From assembly GCF_000966285.1 (NCBI RefSeq), contig NZ_KQ031391.1:1570378-1634377 (forward strand): a stretch of DNA of 64,000 nt. Reading direction: 5' to 3'. The position numbers were made by a program, and so were the translations under genes. Below, piece by piece: positions 35,537 through 43,833 of the stretch. Origin of the DNA: Pseudofrankia sp. DC12. GTDB lineage: Bacteria > Actinomycetota > Actinomycetes > Frankiales > Frankiaceae. The notes below the pieces were generated by a model. That model was not told the origin of the DNA. It was given only the letters and a program-made list of their open reading frames with translations, and searched no databases. Each line of letters opens with the position of its first letter. Positions within the stretch are counted from its first letter, which is position 1.

Positions 35537-36520
35537 CTACGGCTCGGTCCGCTCCCGCGGATGGCCCGTCGCCACGCGCAGGTCGGCGGCGACGGCCCGC
35601 AGGCAGTCGGCGAGGGCCAGCGCGGCGGGGGTGTGCTGGCGGCCGACCGGAATGGTGACGCCCACGGATGACCCGAGCGACGGCAGTGGGACCGGCAGGT
35701 GGGTCAGGCCCAGCTCGTCCCGGGTGACCAGCTCGGGCAGGGCCGCGATCGCGTCGGTGTGCAGCAGCAGGTGGCGGGTCGTCAGGATCGACATGCACTC
35801 GACCCGGTCGGCCGGCAGTGGCAGCGACTCGTGCAGGAACGCCGCCTCCAGCTCGCCGCGCAGCGCCGTCTCGGCGACCGGGACGACCCAGGGGTAGTCG
35901 ACCAGGTCGGCGAGGCGCGCGGCGCCCGCGGCGCACGCCGGATGGCCCGAGCGCGCGACGAGGCGGATCGGCTCCCGGTAGAGCGTCTCCTGGTGCAGGC
36001 GGGCGGCGTCGCCGAGGGTCAGCCGGCCGACGACCAGGTCGAGGGTGCCGGCGAGCAGCTCGGCCGCCAGCGTCTCCGGGCTGGCCTCGCGCACGATGAC
36101 CGTGATCCGCGGCCGGTCCGCCTTGAGCCCCTCGATCGCGAGCGGCAGCAGCAGGTTCGATCCGGCGAGGTAGGTGCCGACCGTGACCGTGCCGGTGTCG
36201 GCGCCGGCGAGATCGGCGAGATGGTCCGACGCCGAGCGCAGCTGGGCGAGCACGGCGCGGGCGTGGTCCAGGAACGCGGCGCCGAAGGCGGTCGGCGTCA
36301 GCCCGCGCGGGCCCCGGTCGTAGAGGCGCACCCCGAGGATGTCCTCGACCTCGTGCAACGCCCGGGTGACGACCGGCTGGGTGACGTGCAGGCGTTCCGC
36401 GGCGCGCACGACGCTGCCCGCCGACGCGATCGCGTCGAGGTAGACCAGATGACGGATCTTGAGGCGCCCGTCGAGCAGCTGGGGCCGGTCCACCGCGTCA
36501 CGATATGCCTGACCGGGCAT
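35537..36520 (-). CDS. LysR-type transcriptional regulator
   Basis: 327 residues from ATG 36520 (a GTG 27 bp further in is an alternative). The HTH is LKIRHLVYLDAIASAGSVVR followed by ERLHVTQPVVTRALHEVEDI. The co-inducer domain begins GTVTVGTYLAGSNLLLPLAI. The PTAFGAAFLDHARAVLAQL hinge is typical. It is divergent from the kynurenine operon with only 57 bp between the starts, the classical position of a LysR activator that also represses itself. The gap contains CGATAT (36501) and ATATCG (36551) as half-sites. The co-inducer is probably a pathway intermediate. Confidence 0.9.
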   Translation of the reverse strand: MPGQAYRDAVDRPQLLDGRLKIRHLVYLDAIASAGSVVRAAERLHVTQPVVTRALHEVEDILGVRLYDRGPRGLTPTAFGAAFLDHARAVLAQLRSASDHLADLAGADTGTVTVGTYLAGSNLLLPLAIEGLKADRPRITVIVREASPETLAAELLAGTLDLVVGRLTLGDAARLHQETLYREPIRLVARSGHPACAAGAARLADLVDYPWVVPVAETALRGELEAAFLHESLPLPADRVECMSILTTRHLLLHTDAIAALPELVTRDELGLTHLPVPLPSLGSSVGVTIPVGRQHTPAALALADCLRAVAADLRVATGHPRERTEP

Positions 36521-36577
36521 GCCTGGAGGCCCGCTCGGTATTTGCGGAACATATCGAGCCGCCCGACACTGGAGGGC

Positions 36578-38125
36578 ATGGCATCCGCGACCGTCCCCGC
36601 CGGCCCGACGACGGCCGGGCGAGCCGCACCCCGGACCACCACCCCCACCACCACGGCAGGCGGCGCGGACCCGCCCGTCCTGCGTGCCGTCGTCGCCGGC
36701 CGCCCGGTCGACGCGGGCGCGAGCTGGGCCAACCTCGACCCGGTCGACGGCTCGGTCCGCTCCTGGGTGCAGGAGTCGGACCAGGCGCTCGTGGATCGCG
36801 CGGTGCGGGCCGCGCGGGCCGCGCTGGACGGGCCCTGGGGACGTCTGTCGGTGGCGCAGCGAACCGCGCTCCTGCGCCGGGTCGCGGACCGGGTCGAGGC
36901 CCGGTTCGAGGAGTTCGTGCTGGCCGAGAGCGGGGACACCGGCAAGCCGCTGGCGCAGGCCCGCGAGCTGGACGTGGCCCGCGCGGTCGCGAACTTCCGG
37001 GCGTTCGCGGACACCGTCGCCGCCGCCGGCCAGCCGAGCTTCCTGACCGATCTCGCGGGCGGGAAGCACGCGCTGAACTACGCGGTCCGCAAGCCGCTCG
37101 GGGTCGTCGCCGTGATCGTCCCATGGAACCTGCCGCTGCTGCTGCTGACCTGGAAGGCCGCGCCGGCACTGGCCTGCGGGAACGCCGTCGTGGTCAAGCC
37201 GAGCGAGTGGACGCCGACGACGGCGACGCTGCTGGCCGAGGTGCTCGCCGAGGCGGGCGTACCGGACGGCGTCTACAACGTGGTGCACGGCTTCGGGCCG
37301 GGGTCGGCGGGGCAGTTCCTCACCGAGCATCCCGGCGTCGACGGGGTGACGTTCACCGGCTCGTCGGCGACCGGGTCGGCGATCATGCGGGCGGTCGCGC
37401 CGCGGGTGCGGCCGGTGTCGTTCGAGCTGGGCGGCAAGAACGCGGCGATCGTCTTCGCGGACGCCGACCTGGAGCTGACCCTCGCCGGCCTGACCCGCTC
37501 GGTGTTCGCGAACACCGGCCAGGTCTGCCTGTGCACGGAGCGGGTCTACGTCGAGCGGCCGGTCTTCGACGAGGTCACGGCCGGGCTGGTCAAGCAGGCG
37601 GAGGCGCTGCGGCTCGGCCGGCCGGACGACCCCGCGACCACCACCGGCCCGTTGATCTCCGCCGAGCACCGCGACAAGGTGCTGGGCTACTACCGGCTAG
37701 CCGAGGAACAGGGCGCGCGGGTGCTGGTCGGCGGCGGGGTGCCGGCGCTGGGTGGCGGCCTCGACGGCGGCTCGTGGATCTCCCCGACGTTGTGGACCGG
37801 GCTGACGAACGAGGACGCGCCGCTGCGGGAGGAGATCTTCGGGCCGTGCGCGGCGCTCGTCCCGTTCGACACCGAGGACGAGGCCGTCCGGCTCGCGAAC
37901 GACACCGACTACGGGCTGGCGTCAGCGGTCTGGACGACGAACCTGTCGCGCGGGCACCGGGTGGCGCAGCGGATGCGGGTCGGGCTGTCGTGGGTGAACA
38001 CCTGGTTCCTGCGGGACCTGCGCTCGCCCTTCGGCGGCGTCGGCCTGTCCGGGATCGGCCGCGAGGGCGGCGAGCACTCGCTGGACTTCTACACGGAGCT
38101 GACCAACGTGTGCGTGGCGCTGTGA
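36578..38125 (+). CDS. 2-aminomuconate semialdehyde dehydrogenase (ALDH family)
   Basis: 515 residues; the ATG follows GGAGGGC. The aldehyde dehydrogenase signatures are VIVPWNLPLLLLTWKAAPAL, GVTFTGSSATGSAIMRAVAP, the catalytic Glu in VSFELGGKNAAIVFADADLE, and the Cys in NTGQVCLCTERVYVERPVFD. A ~30-residue Thr/Pro-rich leader precedes the fold. Relatives oxidise 2-hydroxymuconic or 2-aminomuconic semialdehyde with NAD. As first gene of the kynurenine operon it should take the product of ACMS decarboxylase to 2-aminomuconate. Confidence 0.88.
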   Translation: MASATVPAGPTTAGRAAPRTTTPTTTAGGADPPVLRAVVAGRPVDAGASWANLDPVDGSVRSWVQESDQALVDRAVRAARAALDGPWGRLSVAQRTALLRRVADRVEARFEEFVLAESGDTGKPLAQARELDVARAVANFRAFADTVAAAGQPSFLTDLAGGKHALNYAVRKPLGVVAVIVPWNLPLLLLTWKAAPALACGNAVVVKPSEWTPTTATLLAEVLAEAGVPDGVYNVVHGFGPGSAGQFLTEHPGVDGVTFTGSSATGSAIMRAVAPRVRPVSFELGGKNAAIVFADADLELTLAGLTRSVFANTGQVCLCTERVYVERPVFDEVTAGLVKQAEALRLGRPDDPATTTGPLISAEHRDKVLGYYRLAEEQGARVLVGGGVPALGGGLDGGSWISPTLWTGLTNEDAPLREEIFGPCAALVPFDTEDEAVRLANDTDYGLASAVWTTNLSRGHRVAQRMRVGLSWVNTWFLRDLRSPFGGVGLSGIGREGGEHSLDFYTELTNVCVAL

Positions 38126-39141
38126 GCCGGACCTCCCAGACCGGCTCCGCAAGCTCCACCGATCCGGCAGGAACCCCGGGAGCGAGTCCGCGGAGTGGTC
38201 GTCCGAGGCGGACCTCCCAGATCGGCTCCGTCGATCTGGCAGGAACCCCGGAGGACGGCCGCGGAGCGGACTCACGACGGAGCGAACCAGAGACACAGAG
38301 CTCGCCGTTGGGTCACGAGCCAGTCGAGGAGACGGCCGACTATCTGGACCGCGCGCGGCTGCGGGTCACGGCGGTGCCCCAGCTGCCGGCCGGCCTGGAG
38401 CTGGCCGACGCCTACAGGATCCAGCGGGCCGTCGTCGGCCGGCGGCTGGCGCGCGGTGAGCGGCTGGTCGGCACGAAGCTCGGGATGACGAGCCGGGCGA
38501 AGATGGAGCAGATGGGGATCTCCGAGATCATCTGCGGCCAGCTCACCGACGCGATGACGGTGCCCGACGGCGGCTCGGTGGACCTGACCAAGCTGATCCA
38601 TCCGCGGGTGGAGCCCGAGGTGGCCTTCCGGCTCGCCCGGGACGTCGACCTGAGCGACCCGGACGTGGACATCGTGGCCTGCACCGGCGGGGTCGCGGCG
38701 GCGCTGGAGATCATCGACTCGCGGTACGCGGACTTCCGGTTCAGCCTGCCGGACGTGGTCGCGGACAACACCTCGGCGGCGTTCTTCGTCGTCGGGGCGT
38801 GGTGCCCACCGATGCCGGAGTCGTGGCGGCAGACGCTCGGCGCGCTGCCGGTGCAGCTGTCCGCCGGCGGCGAGACCGTCGAGGCGGGGTCCACGAGCGA
38901 GATCCTCGGCCATCCGCTGAACGCGTTGCGGGCACTGGTCCCGCTCGCCCGCCAGTACGGGTTCCCGCTGAGCGCCGGGCAGGTGATCCTCGCCGGCGCG
39001 GCGACGGCGGCCGTGCCGCTGCGGCCCGGCCCGGTGCGCGTCGAGATCTTCGGCCTCGGCACCGCGAGCGTGCACGCCGAGGCCGGGGCCGGGGCTGGGG
39101 CCGGGGCTGGGGCCGGGGCCGGGGCCGGGGCCGATGGCTGA
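38122..39141 (+). CDS. 4-oxalocrotonate decarboxylase / 2-keto-4-pentenoate hydratase family
   Basis: Read from GTG 38122, which overlaps the ALDH stop, giving 339 residues. The first ~62 residues are a low-complexity leader built from a DNA repeat and are absent from relatives; a TTG near 38309 could be the true start. The catalytic part runs from [20 protein letters not shown], with [20 protein letters not shown], the metal-binding [20 protein letters not shown], and [20 protein letters not shown]. This family includes both the decarboxylase and the hydratase of the meta-cleavage pathway. Placed next to a deaminase that yields 4-oxalocrotonate, decarboxylase is more likely. The C-terminus ends in an Ala-Gly tail from a GGGGCC repeat. 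Confidence 0.82.
38129..38252 (+). repeat. Imperfect direct repeat inserted at the 5' end of the decarboxylase gene
   Basis: GGACCTCCCAGACCGGCTCC (38129) recurs as GGACCTCCCAGATCGGCTCC (38210), each followed by a GATC-GGCAGGAACCCCGG block (to 38180 and 38252). A nearby inverted pair (GAGTCCGC at 38185 and GCGGACTC at 38265) frames the second copy. The units encode RTSQ(T/I)GS and AGTP. It resembles a dispersed intergenic repeat that has become coding. Confidence 0.7.
39085..39132 (+). repeat. Eight GGGGCC/GGGGCT hexanucleotide units
   Basis: Eight tandem hexamers (six GGGGCC, two GGGGCT) encode (Gly-Ala)n at the very end of the decarboxylase. The units end one base before the next gene's ATG (39134), so length changes would affect the tail and the spacing before the next start. 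Confidence 0.95.
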
Positions 39142-39571
39142 AACCTCCACCTCAGCCAGCGTGGTCCCCGGGAAGGCGACGCCACGGGGGCGGTTCCCGC
39201 AGGTGAAGCGAGCGGGCGACTTCGTCTACCTGTCCGGGACGTCCTCACGACGGCCCGACAACACGTTCGTCGGCGCGGCGGTCGACCCACTGGGAACGAC
39301 GTCGCTGGACATCCGGGCCCAGACCAGAGCCGTGATCGAGAACCTGGGCGCGCTGCTCGCCGACGTGGGCGCCGGACTGACCGATCTCGTGGACGTCACG
39401 GCCTACCTGGTCAGCATGAACGACTTCGGCGGCTACAACGAGGTCTGGGCCGAGTTCTTCGACGAGACCGGGCCGACCCGGACGACCGTCGCCGTCCACC
39501 AGCTCCCGCACCCGCTGTTGCTGATCGAGATGCAGGCCGTCGCGTACGTCCCGAGAAAGGCCGAGCCATGA
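39134..39571 (+). CDS. RidA-family protein, probable 2-aminomuconate deaminase
   Basis: 145 residues; the start overlaps the decarboxylase end by 8 bp. The YjgF/RidA fold shows [60 protein letters not shown] and the C-terminal [15 protein letters not shown] with the conserved Glu. The [12 protein letters not shown] segment and the overall length match the AmnD/NbaF 2-aminomuconate deaminases, which convert 2-aminomuconate to 4-oxalocrotonate plus ammonia, rather than generic RidA (~130 residues). Confidence 0.85.
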
Positions 39572-40089
39572 GCCTCTCCCAGCCGATCAACCTCGGCGCC
39601 TGGATCAAAGAGAACCAGCACCTGCTGAAGCCACCGGTAGGCAACAAGACGCTGGTGGTCGGGGACGACTACATCGTCCAGGTCGTCGGCGGCCCGAACG
39701 CCCGCACCGACTACCACGTCGACCCGTACGAGGAGTGGTTCCACCAGCTGCGGGGCTCGATGCACGTCAACGTCATCGACGAGGACGGCAGCCCGCGGCG
39801 GATCGACATCGGGGCGGGCGAGACCTGGCTGCTGCCCCGGGGAGTCCCGCACTCGCCGCAGCGGCCGGAGGCGGGCTCGGCCGGGCTGGTCGTCGAGCGG
39901 ATCCGGGAGGAGGGGCTGCTGGAGAAGTTCCAGTGGTACTGCCCGGAATGCGCGGCGCTGGTGCACGAGACGGAGCTACAGGTGCGCGACATCGTCAAGG
40001 ACCTCCCGCCGGTGTTCAGCGCCTTCTACGCCGACGAACAGGCCCGGACCTGCCCCAAGTGCGCCACCGTGCACCCGGGCAAGGGCTGA
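39568..40089 (+). CDS. nbaC: 3-hydroxyanthranilate 3,4-dioxygenase
   Basis: 173 residues, ATGA overlap with the preceding gene. [20 protein letters not shown] is the family opening. The Fe(II) ligands are in [20 protein letters not shown] (His and Glu) and [13 protein letters not shown] (His). The C-terminus has the bacterial second iron site, two CxxC pairs: [11 protein letters not shown] and [12 protein letters not shown]. It opens 3-hydroxyanthranilate to 2-amino-3-carboxymuconate semialdehyde (ACMS). All key residues are present. Confidence 0.95.
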
Positions 40090-40098
40090 CCGGGCCGC

Positions 40099-41214
40099 AT
40101 GGGACCCGCCGAGCCCCCGAACCCTGGTGACAGTGCGCGCCGGGCCGATATCCACCGTCCGGACGTCATCGACGTCCATACCCACTACGTGCCGCACGGC
40201 TGGCCGGATCTCGGCCCGGACACACCGACCGCCCGGTTCGAGACCGAGACCGAGGTCATGATCATGCTGGCCGGCCGGGAGTTCCGCCGGGTCGCCGCGG
40301 ACTGCTGGGACGCCGAGCTCCGGCTTGCCGACATGGACGCCGACGGCGTACACCAGCAGGCCGTCTCCCCCACCCCGGTCTTCTTCTCCTACGCCCACGA
40401 CGTCGCCCAGGCCGCGAAGATCGCGTACATCCTCAACGACCTGGCGCTGGAGATCTGCGAGCCGGCGCCCGGGCGGCTGCTGCCGATGTGCCAGGTCCCG
40501 CTACAGGACCCGGACGCGGCCTGCGCCGAGCTGGAGCGCTGCCTGGCCGCCGGCCACGTCGGCGTCGAGATCGGCAACCACGTCGGCGACCACGACCTCG
40601 ACAACGAGGGCGTCGTGACGTTCCTGCAGCATGCGGCGGCCCTCGGCGCGCCGGTCTTCGTGCACCCGTGGGACATGCCGACCTCACCGCGGCTCGACCG
40701 GTGGATGGCGCAGTGGTTGGTCGGGATGCCGTCCGAGACGCACCTGTCGATCCTGGCGATGATCCTCGGCGGGGTCTTCGACCGGGTCGAGGAGTCGCTG
40801 CGGATCTGCTTCGCCCACGGCGGCGGCTCGTTCGCCTTCTGGCTCGGCCGTCTCGCCAACGCCTGGCACCGGCGGGGCGACGTGATCGGCACGTCCGAGC
40901 TGCACCCCGAGCGGTACCTCGGCCGGTTCTACGTCGACTCGGTGGTCTTCGACGCCTGCGCGCTGCGGCTGCTGGTCGACACGATCGGCGCCGACCGGGT
41001 CGTCGTCGGCAGCGACTATCCCTACCCGCTCGGCGAGCGGCCGGCCGGCTCCGTCGTCAGGACGGCCGACTTCCTGGACGCCCCGACCCGCGCCCGGCTG
41101 CTCAACGGCAACGCGCGGGCCTTCCTCGGGCTCGCCACGCCCTCCGAAAGCGGCCCGGCCCCCACCCCCACCTCGGCCTCAGCCTCAGCCTCGGCGGATC
41201 GAGCCGCGCGGTGA
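40099..41214 (+). CDS. nbaD: Amidohydrolase, probable ACMS decarboxylase
   Basis: 371 residues. The metal site HxH is in DVIDVHTHYVPHGWPDL, with more ligands at FVHPWDMP, CFAHGGGSFAFWLGRLANAW and the Asp in VVVGSDYPYPLG. MADMDADGVHQQAVSPTPVF-type substrate loop and length match alpha-amino-beta-carboxymuconate-epsilon-semialdehyde decarboxylases. It removes CO2 from ACMS and prevents its spontaneous closure to quinolinate. The C-terminal ~20 residues are an Ala/Ser/Pro tail. It starts 10 bp after the dioxygenase. Confidence 0.92.
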   Translation: MGPAEPPNPGDSARRADIHRPDVIDVHTHYVPHGWPDLGPDTPTARFETETEVMIMLAGREFRRVAADCWDAELRLADMDADGVHQQAVSPTPVFFSYAHDVAQAAKIAYILNDLALEICEPAPGRLLPMCQVPLQDPDAACAELERCLAAGHVGVEIGNHVGDHDLDNEGVVTFLQHAAALGAPVFVHPWDMPTSPRLDRWMAQWLVGMPSETHLSILAMILGGVFDRVEESLRICFAHGGGSFAFWLGRLANAWHRRGDVIGTSELHPERYLGRFYVDSVVFDACALRLLVDTIGADRVVVGSDYPYPLGERPAGSVVRTADFLDAPTRARLLNGNARAFLGLATPSESGPAPTPTSASASASADRAAR

Positions 41215-42494
41215 GCCCGCTCGCGCTGCTCGACCAGGAGCGCCAGGCCCGGGAGCTGGATGCCCACGACCCGCTGCCGACCCGGCGAGACGAGTTCCAC
41301 ATCCCGCCGCACGGTTCCGGCGAGGCGGCCTACTTCGCCGGGAACTCGCTCGGGCTGCAGCCGAAGGCGCTGCAAGCCCGGCTCGGCGAGGAGCTGGACG
41401 ACTGGGCCCGCCTCGGTGTCGAAGGGCATCTGGAGGCGCGCCGGCCGTGGCTGCCCTACCACGACCTGGCCAGGGAGCCGGCCGCACGCCTGGTCGGGGC
41501 GCTGCCGAGCGAGGTCGTCGTGATGAACTCCCTCACGGTCAACCTGCACCTACTGATGGTCAGCTTCTACCGGCCGACCCCGCAGCGGCACCGGATCGTC
41601 ATCGAGGACAGCGCCTTCCCGTCGGACAGCTATGCGGTCCGGTCACAGGCCGCCTTCCACGGCTACGACCCGGACGACGCGGTGATCCGGCTGGCACCGC
41701 GCGCGGGCGAGGCCGCGCTGCGCTCGGAGGACGTCGTCGCCTACCTGGCCGCGCACGGCGCGGGCGTCGCGCTCGTGCTGCTCGGCGCGGTCAACTACTA
41801 CAGCGGCGAGCTTCTCGACATCGCCGCCATCACCGCGGCCGCCCACGCGGCCGGCGCCGTCGCCGGCTGGGACCTGGCCCATGCCGCCGGCAACGTCGAG
41901 CTCCGGCTGCACGACGCGGGCGCGGACTGGGCCGCCTGGTGCTCGTACAAGTACCTGAACTCCGGTCCGGGCTCGCTCGCCGGCGCCTTCGTCCACGAGC
42001 GGCACCTGGCCGACCGGACGCTGCCGAGGCTCGCCGGCTGGTGGTCGACCGACCCCGCGAGCCGGTTCCAGATGGAACCGACGGTCACGCCGGTGGACTC
42101 GGCCGACGGGTGGCAGCTGTCCAACCCGCCGATCCTCGCGCTGGCCCCGGTGCTGCTCTCCTTGGAGATGTTCGACCAGACCGGCATGACGGCGCTGCGG
42201 GCCAGGAGCGTGCGGCTGACCGCCTACCTGGAGTCGCTGCTCGACGAGGTCTGCGCGGCGCGGGCCGCCGAGATCATCACCCCGCGCGAACCGGAGCGCC
42301 GGGGCGCCCAGCTCTCGGTCCGCGTCCGCGGCCGTGAGGCCGGCCCAGTGACCGAGCGGCTGCGGCACGCCCACGGCGTCGTCGCCGACGCCCGCCGCCC
42401 GGACGTCATCCGGCTGGCCCCCGCGCCGATGTACTGCACCTTCCACGACTGCTGGCGGGCCGCCGGCGCGCTCGCGGAGGTGCTCGATGCCTGA
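41211..42494 (+). CDS. kynU: Kynureninase
   Basis: 427 residues from GTG 41211 (overlap with the ACMSD stop). YFAGNSLGLQPKALQARLGE, the PLP-phosphate region VVVMNSLTVNLHLLMVSFY, AGWDLAHAAGNVELRLHDAG with the PLP Asp, and the Schiff-base Lys in AAWCSYKYLNSGPGSLAGAF are all typical. It cleaves (3-hydroxy)kynurenine to (3-hydroxy)anthranilate and alanine. The GWWSTDPASRFQM and QLSNPPILALAPVL motifs complete the substrate site. Confidence 0.95.
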   Translation: MSPLALLDQERQARELDAHDPLPTRRDEFHIPPHGSGEAAYFAGNSLGLQPKALQARLGEELDDWARLGVEGHLEARRPWLPYHDLAREPAARLVGALPSEVVVMNSLTVNLHLLMVSFYRPTPQRHRIVIEDSAFPSDSYAVRSQAAFHGYDPDDAVIRLAPRAGEAALRSEDVVAYLAAHGAGVALVLLGAVNYYSGELLDIAAITAAAHAAGAVAGWDLAHAAGNVELRLHDAGADWAAWCSYKYLNSGPGSLAGAFVHERHLADRTLPRLAGWWSTDPASRFQMEPTVTPVDSADGWQLSNPPILALAPVLLSLEMFDQTGMTALRARSVRLTAYLESLLDEVCAARAAEIITPREPERRGAQLSVRVRGREAGPVTERLRHAHGVVADARRPDVIRLAPAPMYCTFHDCWRAAGALAEVLDA

Positions 42495-43833
42495 GTGGCC
42501 CACCGCCGACGAGCCGCGGGTCGTGATCATCGGAGCCGGGCTGGCCGGCTGCCTGCTGGCGACCCTGCTGGGCCGGCGCGGGATGCAGGTGAACGTCTAC
42601 GAGCGGCGCGAGGATCCCCGCGCCGCGCCGCCGGAACGCGGGCGCTCGATCAACCTGGCCATCTCCGCGCGAGGGCTGGCCGCGCTCGACCACGTCGGGC
42701 TGCGGGAGCAGGCACTGTCCCGGGCGCTGCCGATGCACGGGCGGATGGTCCACGACCCGGCGGGCGGGCGCAGCTTCCGGCCGTACAGCGCCGACGGCCG
42801 CCGCGCGATCAACTCGATCAGCCGGTCCGAGCTGAACCTCGCGCTGCTCGACGTCGCCGTGAAGACCCCCGGGGTGAACGTGGCGTTCGGCTGCCGGCTC
42901 ACCCACCTGGATCTGGACACCGGAGAGCTGCGGTTCGCCACCGACGAAGGGCCGCGGCTGGCCCAGGCCGACCTCGTGCTGGCCTGCGACGGCGCCTTCA
43001 GCGCGGCACGGCGCACGGTCACCTTCCGTACCGGTTTCACGTTCGGCCAGGACTACCTGGACCACCGGTACAAGGAGCTGACGATCCCGGCCAGGGACGG
43101 CGAGTTCGCGCTGGACCCGGACGCGCTGCACATCTGGCCACGCGGGGAGTCGATGATGATCGCCCTGCCCAACCTCGACCGGTCGTTCACCTGCACCCTC
43201 TTCTGGACGTCCGAGCAGTTCGCGGCGCTGCGGTCCCCGGCCCAGATCGCCGAGCATTTCCAGGCGCACTATCCCGACGTCGCCGAGCTGGCTCCGGACC
43301 TGGTCGAGGACTACCTGCACAACCCGCTCGGCTCCCTGGCGACGATCCGCGCCTGGCCGTGGGTGCACGGCGGCGCGGCGGCGACGCTCGCGCTCGTCGG
43401 CGACGCCGCGCACGCCATCGTGCCGTTCTTCGGCCAGGGCGCGAACTGCGCGTTCGAGGACTGCGTCGAGATCGACCGCTGCCTGGCCGAGAGCGGGAAC
43501 GGCTGGCCGGGCGCGCTGGCCGCGTACGAACGCCGCCGCAAGGCGAACTGCGACGCGATCGCCGAGATGGCCCTGGACAACTTCGTCGAGATGCGCGACC
43601 GGGTGAGCTCGAAGGCGTTCCAGGCGAAGGCCGCCGCCGGGCACTGGCTGGAGCGCCGGCTGCCCGGCCGCTTCGTCTCCCGTTACGAGCTGGTCAGCTT
43701 CACCACGATGCCCTACGCCGAGATCCCGCCCCGGATGCGCCGGCAGGCCCGGCTCACGGCGCTGGCCGCGGCCGGGATCGCGGGCCTCGGGGCCGCCACC
43801 GTCGTCGGCGCCAGCCGCGGCGGGCGCCGATGA
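42487..43833 (+). CDS. kmo: Kynurenine 3-monooxygenase
   Basis: 448 residues; ATG 42487 overlaps kynU by 8 bp. The FAD fingerprint is RVVIIGAGLAGCLLATLLGR; GRSINLAISARGLAALDHVG is the KMO-specific loop, DGAFSAARRTV the ribose contact, and LVGDAAHAIVPFFGQGANCA the GD motif. YRYKELTIP-like HRYKELTIPARDGEFALDPD and the Phe/Tyr region for kynurenine are kept. The C-terminus ends in ALAAAGIAGLGAATVVGAS, a hydrophobic stretch reminiscent of the membrane tail of eukaryotic KMO. It hydroxylates kynurenine to 3-hydroxykynurenine. Confidence 0.93.
   Translation: MPEWPTADEPRVVIIGAGLAGCLLATLLGRRGMQVNVYERREDPRAAPPERGRSINLAISARGLAALDHVGLREQALSRALPMHGRMVHDPAGGRSFRPYSADGRRAINSISRSELNLALLDVAVKTPGVNVAFGCRLTHLDLDTGELRFATDEGPRLAQADLVLACDGAFSAARRTVTFRTGFTFGQDYLDHRYKELTIPARDGEFALDPDALHIWPRGESMMIALPNLDRSFTCTLFWTSEQFAALRSPAQIAEHFQAHYPDVAELAPDLVEDYLHNPLGSLATIRAWPWVHGGAAATLALVGDAAHAIVPFFGQGANCAFEDCVEIDRCLAESGNGWPGALAAYERRRKANCDAIAEMALDNFVEMRDRVSSKAFQAKAAAGHWLERRLPGRFVSRYELVSFTTMPYAEIPPRMRRQARLTALAAAGIAGLGAATVVGASRGGRR

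Follow-up and report, generated by a model that had tools for sequence, protein, structure and literature searches.

The dehydrogenase-decarboxylase junction

The window, the whole 64,000 nt stretch of Pseudofrankia sp. DC12 DNA analysed here (genome G000; 6,884,336 bases in one contig), includes a group of genes at 36578-43833 that resemble those for 3-hydroxyanthranilate meta-cleavage, in what looks like an ordinary catabolic operon. The semialdehyde dehydrogenase and 3-HAO of this group exceed their family cutoffs, with the decarboxylase-like, Rid-like, amidohydrolase and FAD monooxygenase-like products assigned by weaker or domain matches. The gene upstream of the junction (36578-38125; all features are on the + strand) encodes a 2-hydroxymuconic semialdehyde dehydrogenase (TIGR03216, 771.6 bits against a cutoff of 693.25; PF00171). 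Its TGA (38123-38125) is overlapped by a coupling GTG (38122-38124), and the resulting GTGA (38122-38125) is the insertion point, as in the related genome G002 the two genes are joined directly by this same GTGA. The GTG opens a decarboxylase-like reading frame (38122-39141) with an extra N-terminus: its top NCBIfam match, TIGR03218, covers residues 63-317 at 196 bits, below the cutoff of 350, and PF01557 is slightly over its cutoff. At the other end of this frame lies a GCCGGG repeat array (39076-39133), which gives the decarboxylase a AGAGAGAG tail missing from the G002 and G006 orthologues as listed. Elsewhere in the window, approximately five tandem 18-bp copies of GCCAGCACGGGCGGACTG occupy 2328-2423, the unit length being a multiple of three.

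Relative to the empty site in G002, the window carries 192 bp (64 codons) of extra DNA at 38125-38316. The preliminary description had reported two imperfect repeat copies within the first 190 bp of the gene, adding about 62 residues. Both copies were located: unit 1 is a palindrome of 52 nt (38128-38179) with AAGCTCCA in its middle, delimited by comparison with locus L088 and by genus-wide matches to positions 6-58 of the query, and unit 2 is a palindrome of 42 nt (38209-38250), delimited by comparison with L088, by other genome copies and by its fold. The residue count also agrees, there being 62 codons up to the TTG at 38308-38310, the sole other in-frame start codon of the extra region. 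The two units have GGACCTCCCAGAYCGGCTCCG and GATCYGGCAGGAACCCCGG in common, each found twice in the window at up to three mismatches, against 0.01 and 0.10 occurrences expected from shuffles. A chance repeat was ruled out by these expectations together with the genome-wide matches described below. An Rfam search of 36500-40200 at E<=1 found no family at its gathering score, the only match being mir-790 at 22.2 bits against 63.

The palindromes account for just part of the insert. Around them lies a linker, which begins at the GTGA of the overlap and includes a segment ahead of unit 2 (38180-38208), matching the linker of G006, and a segment past unit 2 as far as the TTG (38251-38307), matching L088 and other linkers. 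Its stem, which covaries across other copies, has the 5' arm GTGGTCGTCC at 38195-38204 and the 3' arm GGACGGCCGC at 38253-38262, placing unit 2 at the tip of the linker hairpin. Unit 1 stands in place of 4 nt of the G006 linker (net +48 bases) and unit 2 in place of 3 nt by comparison with L088 (net +39), such that the window junction equals a G006-type linker plus two palindromes. The insert is thus composite, being a linker that carries two nested palindromic units common elsewhere in the genome. Hence the proposal that a dispersed repeat had been captured as the N-terminus stands as regards dispersal, but the repeat first noticed is only a fraction of the extra DNA, the rest being a linker dispersed separately. 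Similarly, the proposed insertion between overlapping genes is matched by the empty overlap in G002, but it is the linker, not the palindromes, that is associated with the overlap. The frame did stay open, and the coupling GTG was retained.

Dispersal of the linker and the palindromes

The insert at 38122-38310 belongs to a dispersed family. A search of the window's genome with a 179-base query, in which 40 of 107 candidates were scored, recovered at least 59 pieces at E<=10 and at least 35 at E<=0.001. In the wider element searches up to 40 candidates were scored per genome, and copy counts are accordingly lower bounds. The palindromic unit was matched in seven of the eight genus genomes, as was the G005 linker when used as the query, which yielded at least 19 pieces in the window's genome. 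A unique unit present in all orthologues, the outcome named beforehand as counting against the preliminary description, is not what was found, given these matches and the empty site in G002. The core pattern occurred in six of the eight genus genomes and as one copy in each of two other genera, among 35 genomes searched, none of which matched the reversed control. Of the eight genus genomes, G007 had no copy in the unit, linker and core-pattern searches alike.

The palindromes, of 42/44 nt and 52/53 nt, are common across the genus; they frequently lie outside coding frames, and some form short arrays. In the window's genome, 21 of the 30 palindrome loci from the 179-base search fall outside linker copies, and at two of 29 scored loci the palindrome lies in frame within a gene: an NDH-2-like gene (L022, 1501-1541) and a protein kinase gene (L027, 1501-1541). 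In G003, the long-form hairpin is also found alone, in frame within a gene for a family III CoA-transferase (L177, 1501-1562).

Beyond the genus, a search of 393 genomes from the class for the stem-loop core CGTCCGAGGNACGAGGACG, allowing up to two mismatches, gave matches in 17, eight of them outside the family; the reversed control matched in one. As short palindromic patterns can converge, this class-wide occurrence is treated as a lead only. The core is also present at three Streptomyces loci (L184, L189 and L194), in a hairpin repeat that shares its loop, CGAGGNACGAGG, and immediately follows a gene that appears thiolase-like from its sequence; at L194 the repeat is in tandem, 102 bp apart. 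In G022 there are seven core matches, six of which have an altered stem of the GTCGACC/GGTCGGC type, five of these six being fully paired by eye, which suggests on sequence grounds that G022 has its own sub-family of the core.

Insertion sites and the reading phase of copies

Filled and empty sites were compared at four junctions, selected for their recognisable genes rather than at random. The decarboxylase junction was examined in the window and in orthologues from five other species. G002 is empty, with CTGTGAAGCCGATCGAGGAG at the junction and a protein beginning V-KPIEETA, and the remaining four have different linkers at the same point: 33 codons without palindromes in G006, reaching the same TTG as in the window; 44 codons in G005, reaching a GTGAGC; and short or diverged linkers in G004 and G001. 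In G003 (L067), a linker carrying two palindromes separates a related dehydrogenase end from a RidA-like frame, the downstream gene being assigned by eye. The presence of the element also varies between species at the other three junctions. Between hisA and hisF, 171 bp (57 codons) are inserted in G000 between GTGAGC and GTGAGCGTCGC, and all six relatives with a match are empty, five having ATGAGC and one GTGAGC; G007 had no match. Between aroC and aroK, 90 bp (30 codons) are inserted in G005; of the seven others, six show nothing but the RTGA and the seventh, G001, carries a short related linker. The names aroC and hisA were read off the sequence. Lastly, a pair that we take to be acyl-CoA-dehydrogenase-like is filled in G000 and G006, and empty, with RTGA, in all six others.

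Across these four junctions, an RTGA overlap lies at the insertion point in 19 of 19 empty sites, and the resolved inserts of 90, 132, 171 and 192 bp are all multiples of three. Of the products at the filled sites, HisF scores above its cutoff with the match starting at residue 60, and shikimate kinase matches Pfam SKI from residue 44, above the Pfam cutoff and below those of NCBIfam. The RNase III match at L139 begins at residue 80. Direct repeats of GTGAGC flank the element in hisF and aroK, and the 3'-end GTGAGC is missing in the window copy and in L149, leaving no target duplication common to all copies.

One further insertion lies inside a gene. In pcrA, an in-frame insert is present in G005 only, with seven of seven other relatives lacking it. 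The G005 PcrA (above cutoff) has 30 additional residues relative to G001 and G004, between DEYQDTN and VVGDADQS, recognisable as the linker read in a different frame. This loop spans 35 to 47 residues among the relatives, differing by up to 12, and 67 in G005.

Coupling was assessed for 69 copies, with eight genes of the window serving to train a codon-usage score. In 40 of these, the upstream coding frame ends at the RTGAGY that begins the element; the stop falls exactly where the matched piece starts in 26, and 9 to 120 nt ahead of it in 14, mostly where a palindrome or other segment lies ahead of that piece. As the element carries its own TGA, one copy in three would close an upstream frame there by chance. 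The 29 copies that failed the coupling test include some that are apparently intergenic, some that are ambiguous, and two inside genes (L172 and L177).

Among the 40 coupled copies there is an excess of in-frame ones. The GTG frame continues without a stop into the coding frame downstream (phase 0) in 30, one of which, L122, was labelled by eye; as computed, the labels were 29 phase 0, two phase 1 and nine phase 2. L122 was moved from phase 1 because its phase 0 frame, which stops after 94 codons, reads as what is presumably a short-chain dehydrogenase. For another copy, L128, the downstream frame scored weakly, at 0.07. In each of the nine phase 2 copies, the stop that closes the GTG frame is overlapped by the start of a further frame, 156 to 509 codons long, and a single copy (L119), through a change in the length of a G run, neither fuses nor re-couples cleanly. 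When copies were grouped by related upstream sequence into 26 distinct junctions, 19 were phase 0 (p = 6.6e-5 against an expectation of 1/3); taking the worst member's label for each group left 18 of 26 (p = 2.2e-4), and also reversing the label made by eye left 17 of 26 (p = 0.0012).

Since element lengths are mostly multiples of three, a ribosome re-initiating at the upstream GTGA would read through the element and on into the downstream gene, giving the latter an N-terminal extension. In copies of other lengths, the next start overlaps the stop that closes the element's frame, and hence coupling would be relayed in two steps. The element may therefore be tolerated because the ribosome's path stays open, whether by fusion or by a second overlap. 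At the window junction, use of the GTG at 38122 and translation of the 64-residue extension are predicted.

Structure, peptide and alternative explanations

Covariation in the linker stem was tested on 55 copies, 52 of them distinct, all lacking palindromes, unlike the window's copy. Over its ten pairs, 96.5% of cells were paired, and 39 cells were compensatory, against 8.0 in shuffles; as the copies include both paralogues and orthologues, these cells are not independent events. The covariation score was 0.311, compared with 0.097 +/- 0.014 when shuffled and at most 0.103 when slid, demonstrating covariation in the stem, with one of the ten pairs (columns 19-44) unpaired in 12 of the 52 copies. 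The second hairpin, of the long form, was represented by 20 of 22 extracted copies (18 distinct), after L133 (a wrong stretch) and L073 (interrupted) were dropped. It had 16 compensatory cells against 5.2 in shuffles, and its three covarying pairs were not unusual, 137 of 500 shuffles having as many. The window insert, in which unit 2 is stacked on the tip of the linker stem, folds more stably than all of 200 shuffles (z -3.48). By itself, unit 2 had z -2.54, with two of 200 shuffles as stable, the whole long-form G005 linker was weakly better than its shuffles (z -2.14; 6/200), and the 52-nt unit 1 was no better than its own (z +1.28; 181/200).

The encoded peptide does not share this conservation. 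In the 35 of the 69 copies that were listed without palindromes and start with GTGAGC, codon differences comprised 22 silent and 100 replacement changes, and mean entropy was 0.28, 0.41 and 0.36 bits at the three codon positions, with no excess of variation at the third. The extension peptide is not conserved, and its codon positions are without protein-level constraint. The first 54 nt of the GTG frame are free of stops in all 35; as the DNA is GC-rich and the third forward frame is likewise stop-free in 34 of 35, an open GTG frame alone is weak evidence. Selection would keep the translation path open and the hairpin foldable, and would not preserve the peptide.

These observations bear on whether the extension is translated at all. 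The element could instead be a hairpin spacer, with the decarboxylase starting at TTG 38308 and other genes at a GTGAGC or ATGAG located close to the element's 3' end, a reading that is compatible with insertion and that we consider unlikely but not negligible. The TTG is in frame and close to where the family match begins, hisF and aroK retain the 3' GTGAGC, and both the unconstrained codons and the expected openness of GC-rich frames would fit. However, a spacer leaves the excess of multiples of three without a reason, given that 30 of 40 coupled copies are phase 0 and only one breaks coupling (two with the computed label for L122), and the pcrA insert is necessarily translated if pcrA works.

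It is less probable still that the element is not mobile, but an old low-complexity linker of coupled genes that has been spread or homogenised by ectopic recombination or gene conversion. The linkers are mosaics with swapped modules; those of G001 and G004 at the decarboxylase junction are short or diverged; and in two genera the same upstream gene carries a copy (L200 of G030, together with L124, L128 and L140). Such an origin does not readily account for the lone insertions at hisA-hisF, at aroC-aroK and in pcrA, where the other relatives examined are empty except for the short G001 linker at aroK. Finally, although related peptides (VSAGASERSGRPRDEDGR...ATERTRDTVS) stand at the front of many unrelated enzymes, a functional N-terminal domain, such as a targeting or anchoring peptide, is very improbable and was rejected, as orthologues lack the extension, its codon changes are mostly replacements, and the same element sits in pcrA in another frame.

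The explanation we favour, and regard as probably correct, is that the window contains one copy of a dispersed, likely mobile, non-autonomous Pseudofrankia hairpin element, which would insert at RTGA sites formed by the overlap of one gene's stop with the start of the next, mostly preserving the frame. Shorter REP-like palindromes would later have inserted into the element, both of those in the window adding a net multiple of three. We infer the mobility of the element and a machinery behind it. The observation in the window is real, and the interpretation first placed on it is supported once corrected in two respects, the composite nature of the insert and the identity of the linker as the part at the overlap. 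A broader reading can be offered tentatively, at somewhat less than even confidence: that this is an actinobacterial mobile hairpin element targeting the coupling overlap itself and surviving by frame preservation, thereby generating N-terminal fusions, often to housekeeping proteins (HisF, shikimate kinase and RNase III), with palindromes entering the hairpin tip under the same rule. Were the stem-loop core shared with Streptomyces and other actinobacteria, the element would belong to a class-wide family as one of its branches. HisF, shikimate kinase, PcrA and the decarboxylase, each of which has or lacks the extra stretch depending on the sister species, constitute natural test sets, bearing on start usage at overlaps and on the cost of N-terminal additions, and automatic start calls in these genomes may take in repeat DNA.

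Among the matches listed from the literature on Frankia repeats, and on repeats fused to or coupled with genes, none describes this element. REP and BIME sequences are extragenic palindromes, which the numerous 42/44- and 52/53-nt palindromes resemble in being often noncoding and sometimes arrayed; they differ in also lying inside the linker and, at the two loci noted above, in frame within genes. With regard to the terminal inverted repeats and target-site duplications of MITEs, direct repeats of GTGAGC lie at both ends of the hisF and aroK elements, and not at both ends of the window copy or L149. Judged by description, the element would appear to act like the mycobacterial MIRU and the Rickettsia RPE, but mostly by fusion. 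The RPE are described in two sources as hairpin elements of ~105-150 bp lying in frame in unrelated protein genes (PMC2229807, PMC10969869). By that description, the in-frame inserts in the pcrA, NDH-2-like and kinase genes are similar; however, RPE occupy gene interiors in bacteria of another phylum, whereas many copies of the present element lie at a stop/start overlap instead.

The likeness to MIRU is in the insertion at an overlapping stop/start, which for MIRU we take to be DTGA, bearing in mind that RTGA was found in all the empty sites of four chosen junctions and that 29 of the 69 copies did not qualify as coupled. As regards tandem copy number, modules are repeated internally in L142 and L173. 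The Pseudofrankia element is set apart, again by the descriptions, by its covarying stems and its nested palindromes. MIRU are presented as small dispersed elements at start codons, with an internal ORF translationally coupled to its neighbour at -4 nt (PMC12548453), and as having units of 53 and 77 bp (PMC4213456). By our own arithmetic and reading, both lengths leave a remainder of two on division by three and would thus give a separate ORF. Nine of the 40 coupled copies behave in this way, whereas 30 fuse in frame. In-frame fusion to the next gene may represent a second route by which small repeats enter packed operons without breaking them, beside the addition of a separate coupled ORF described for MIRU.
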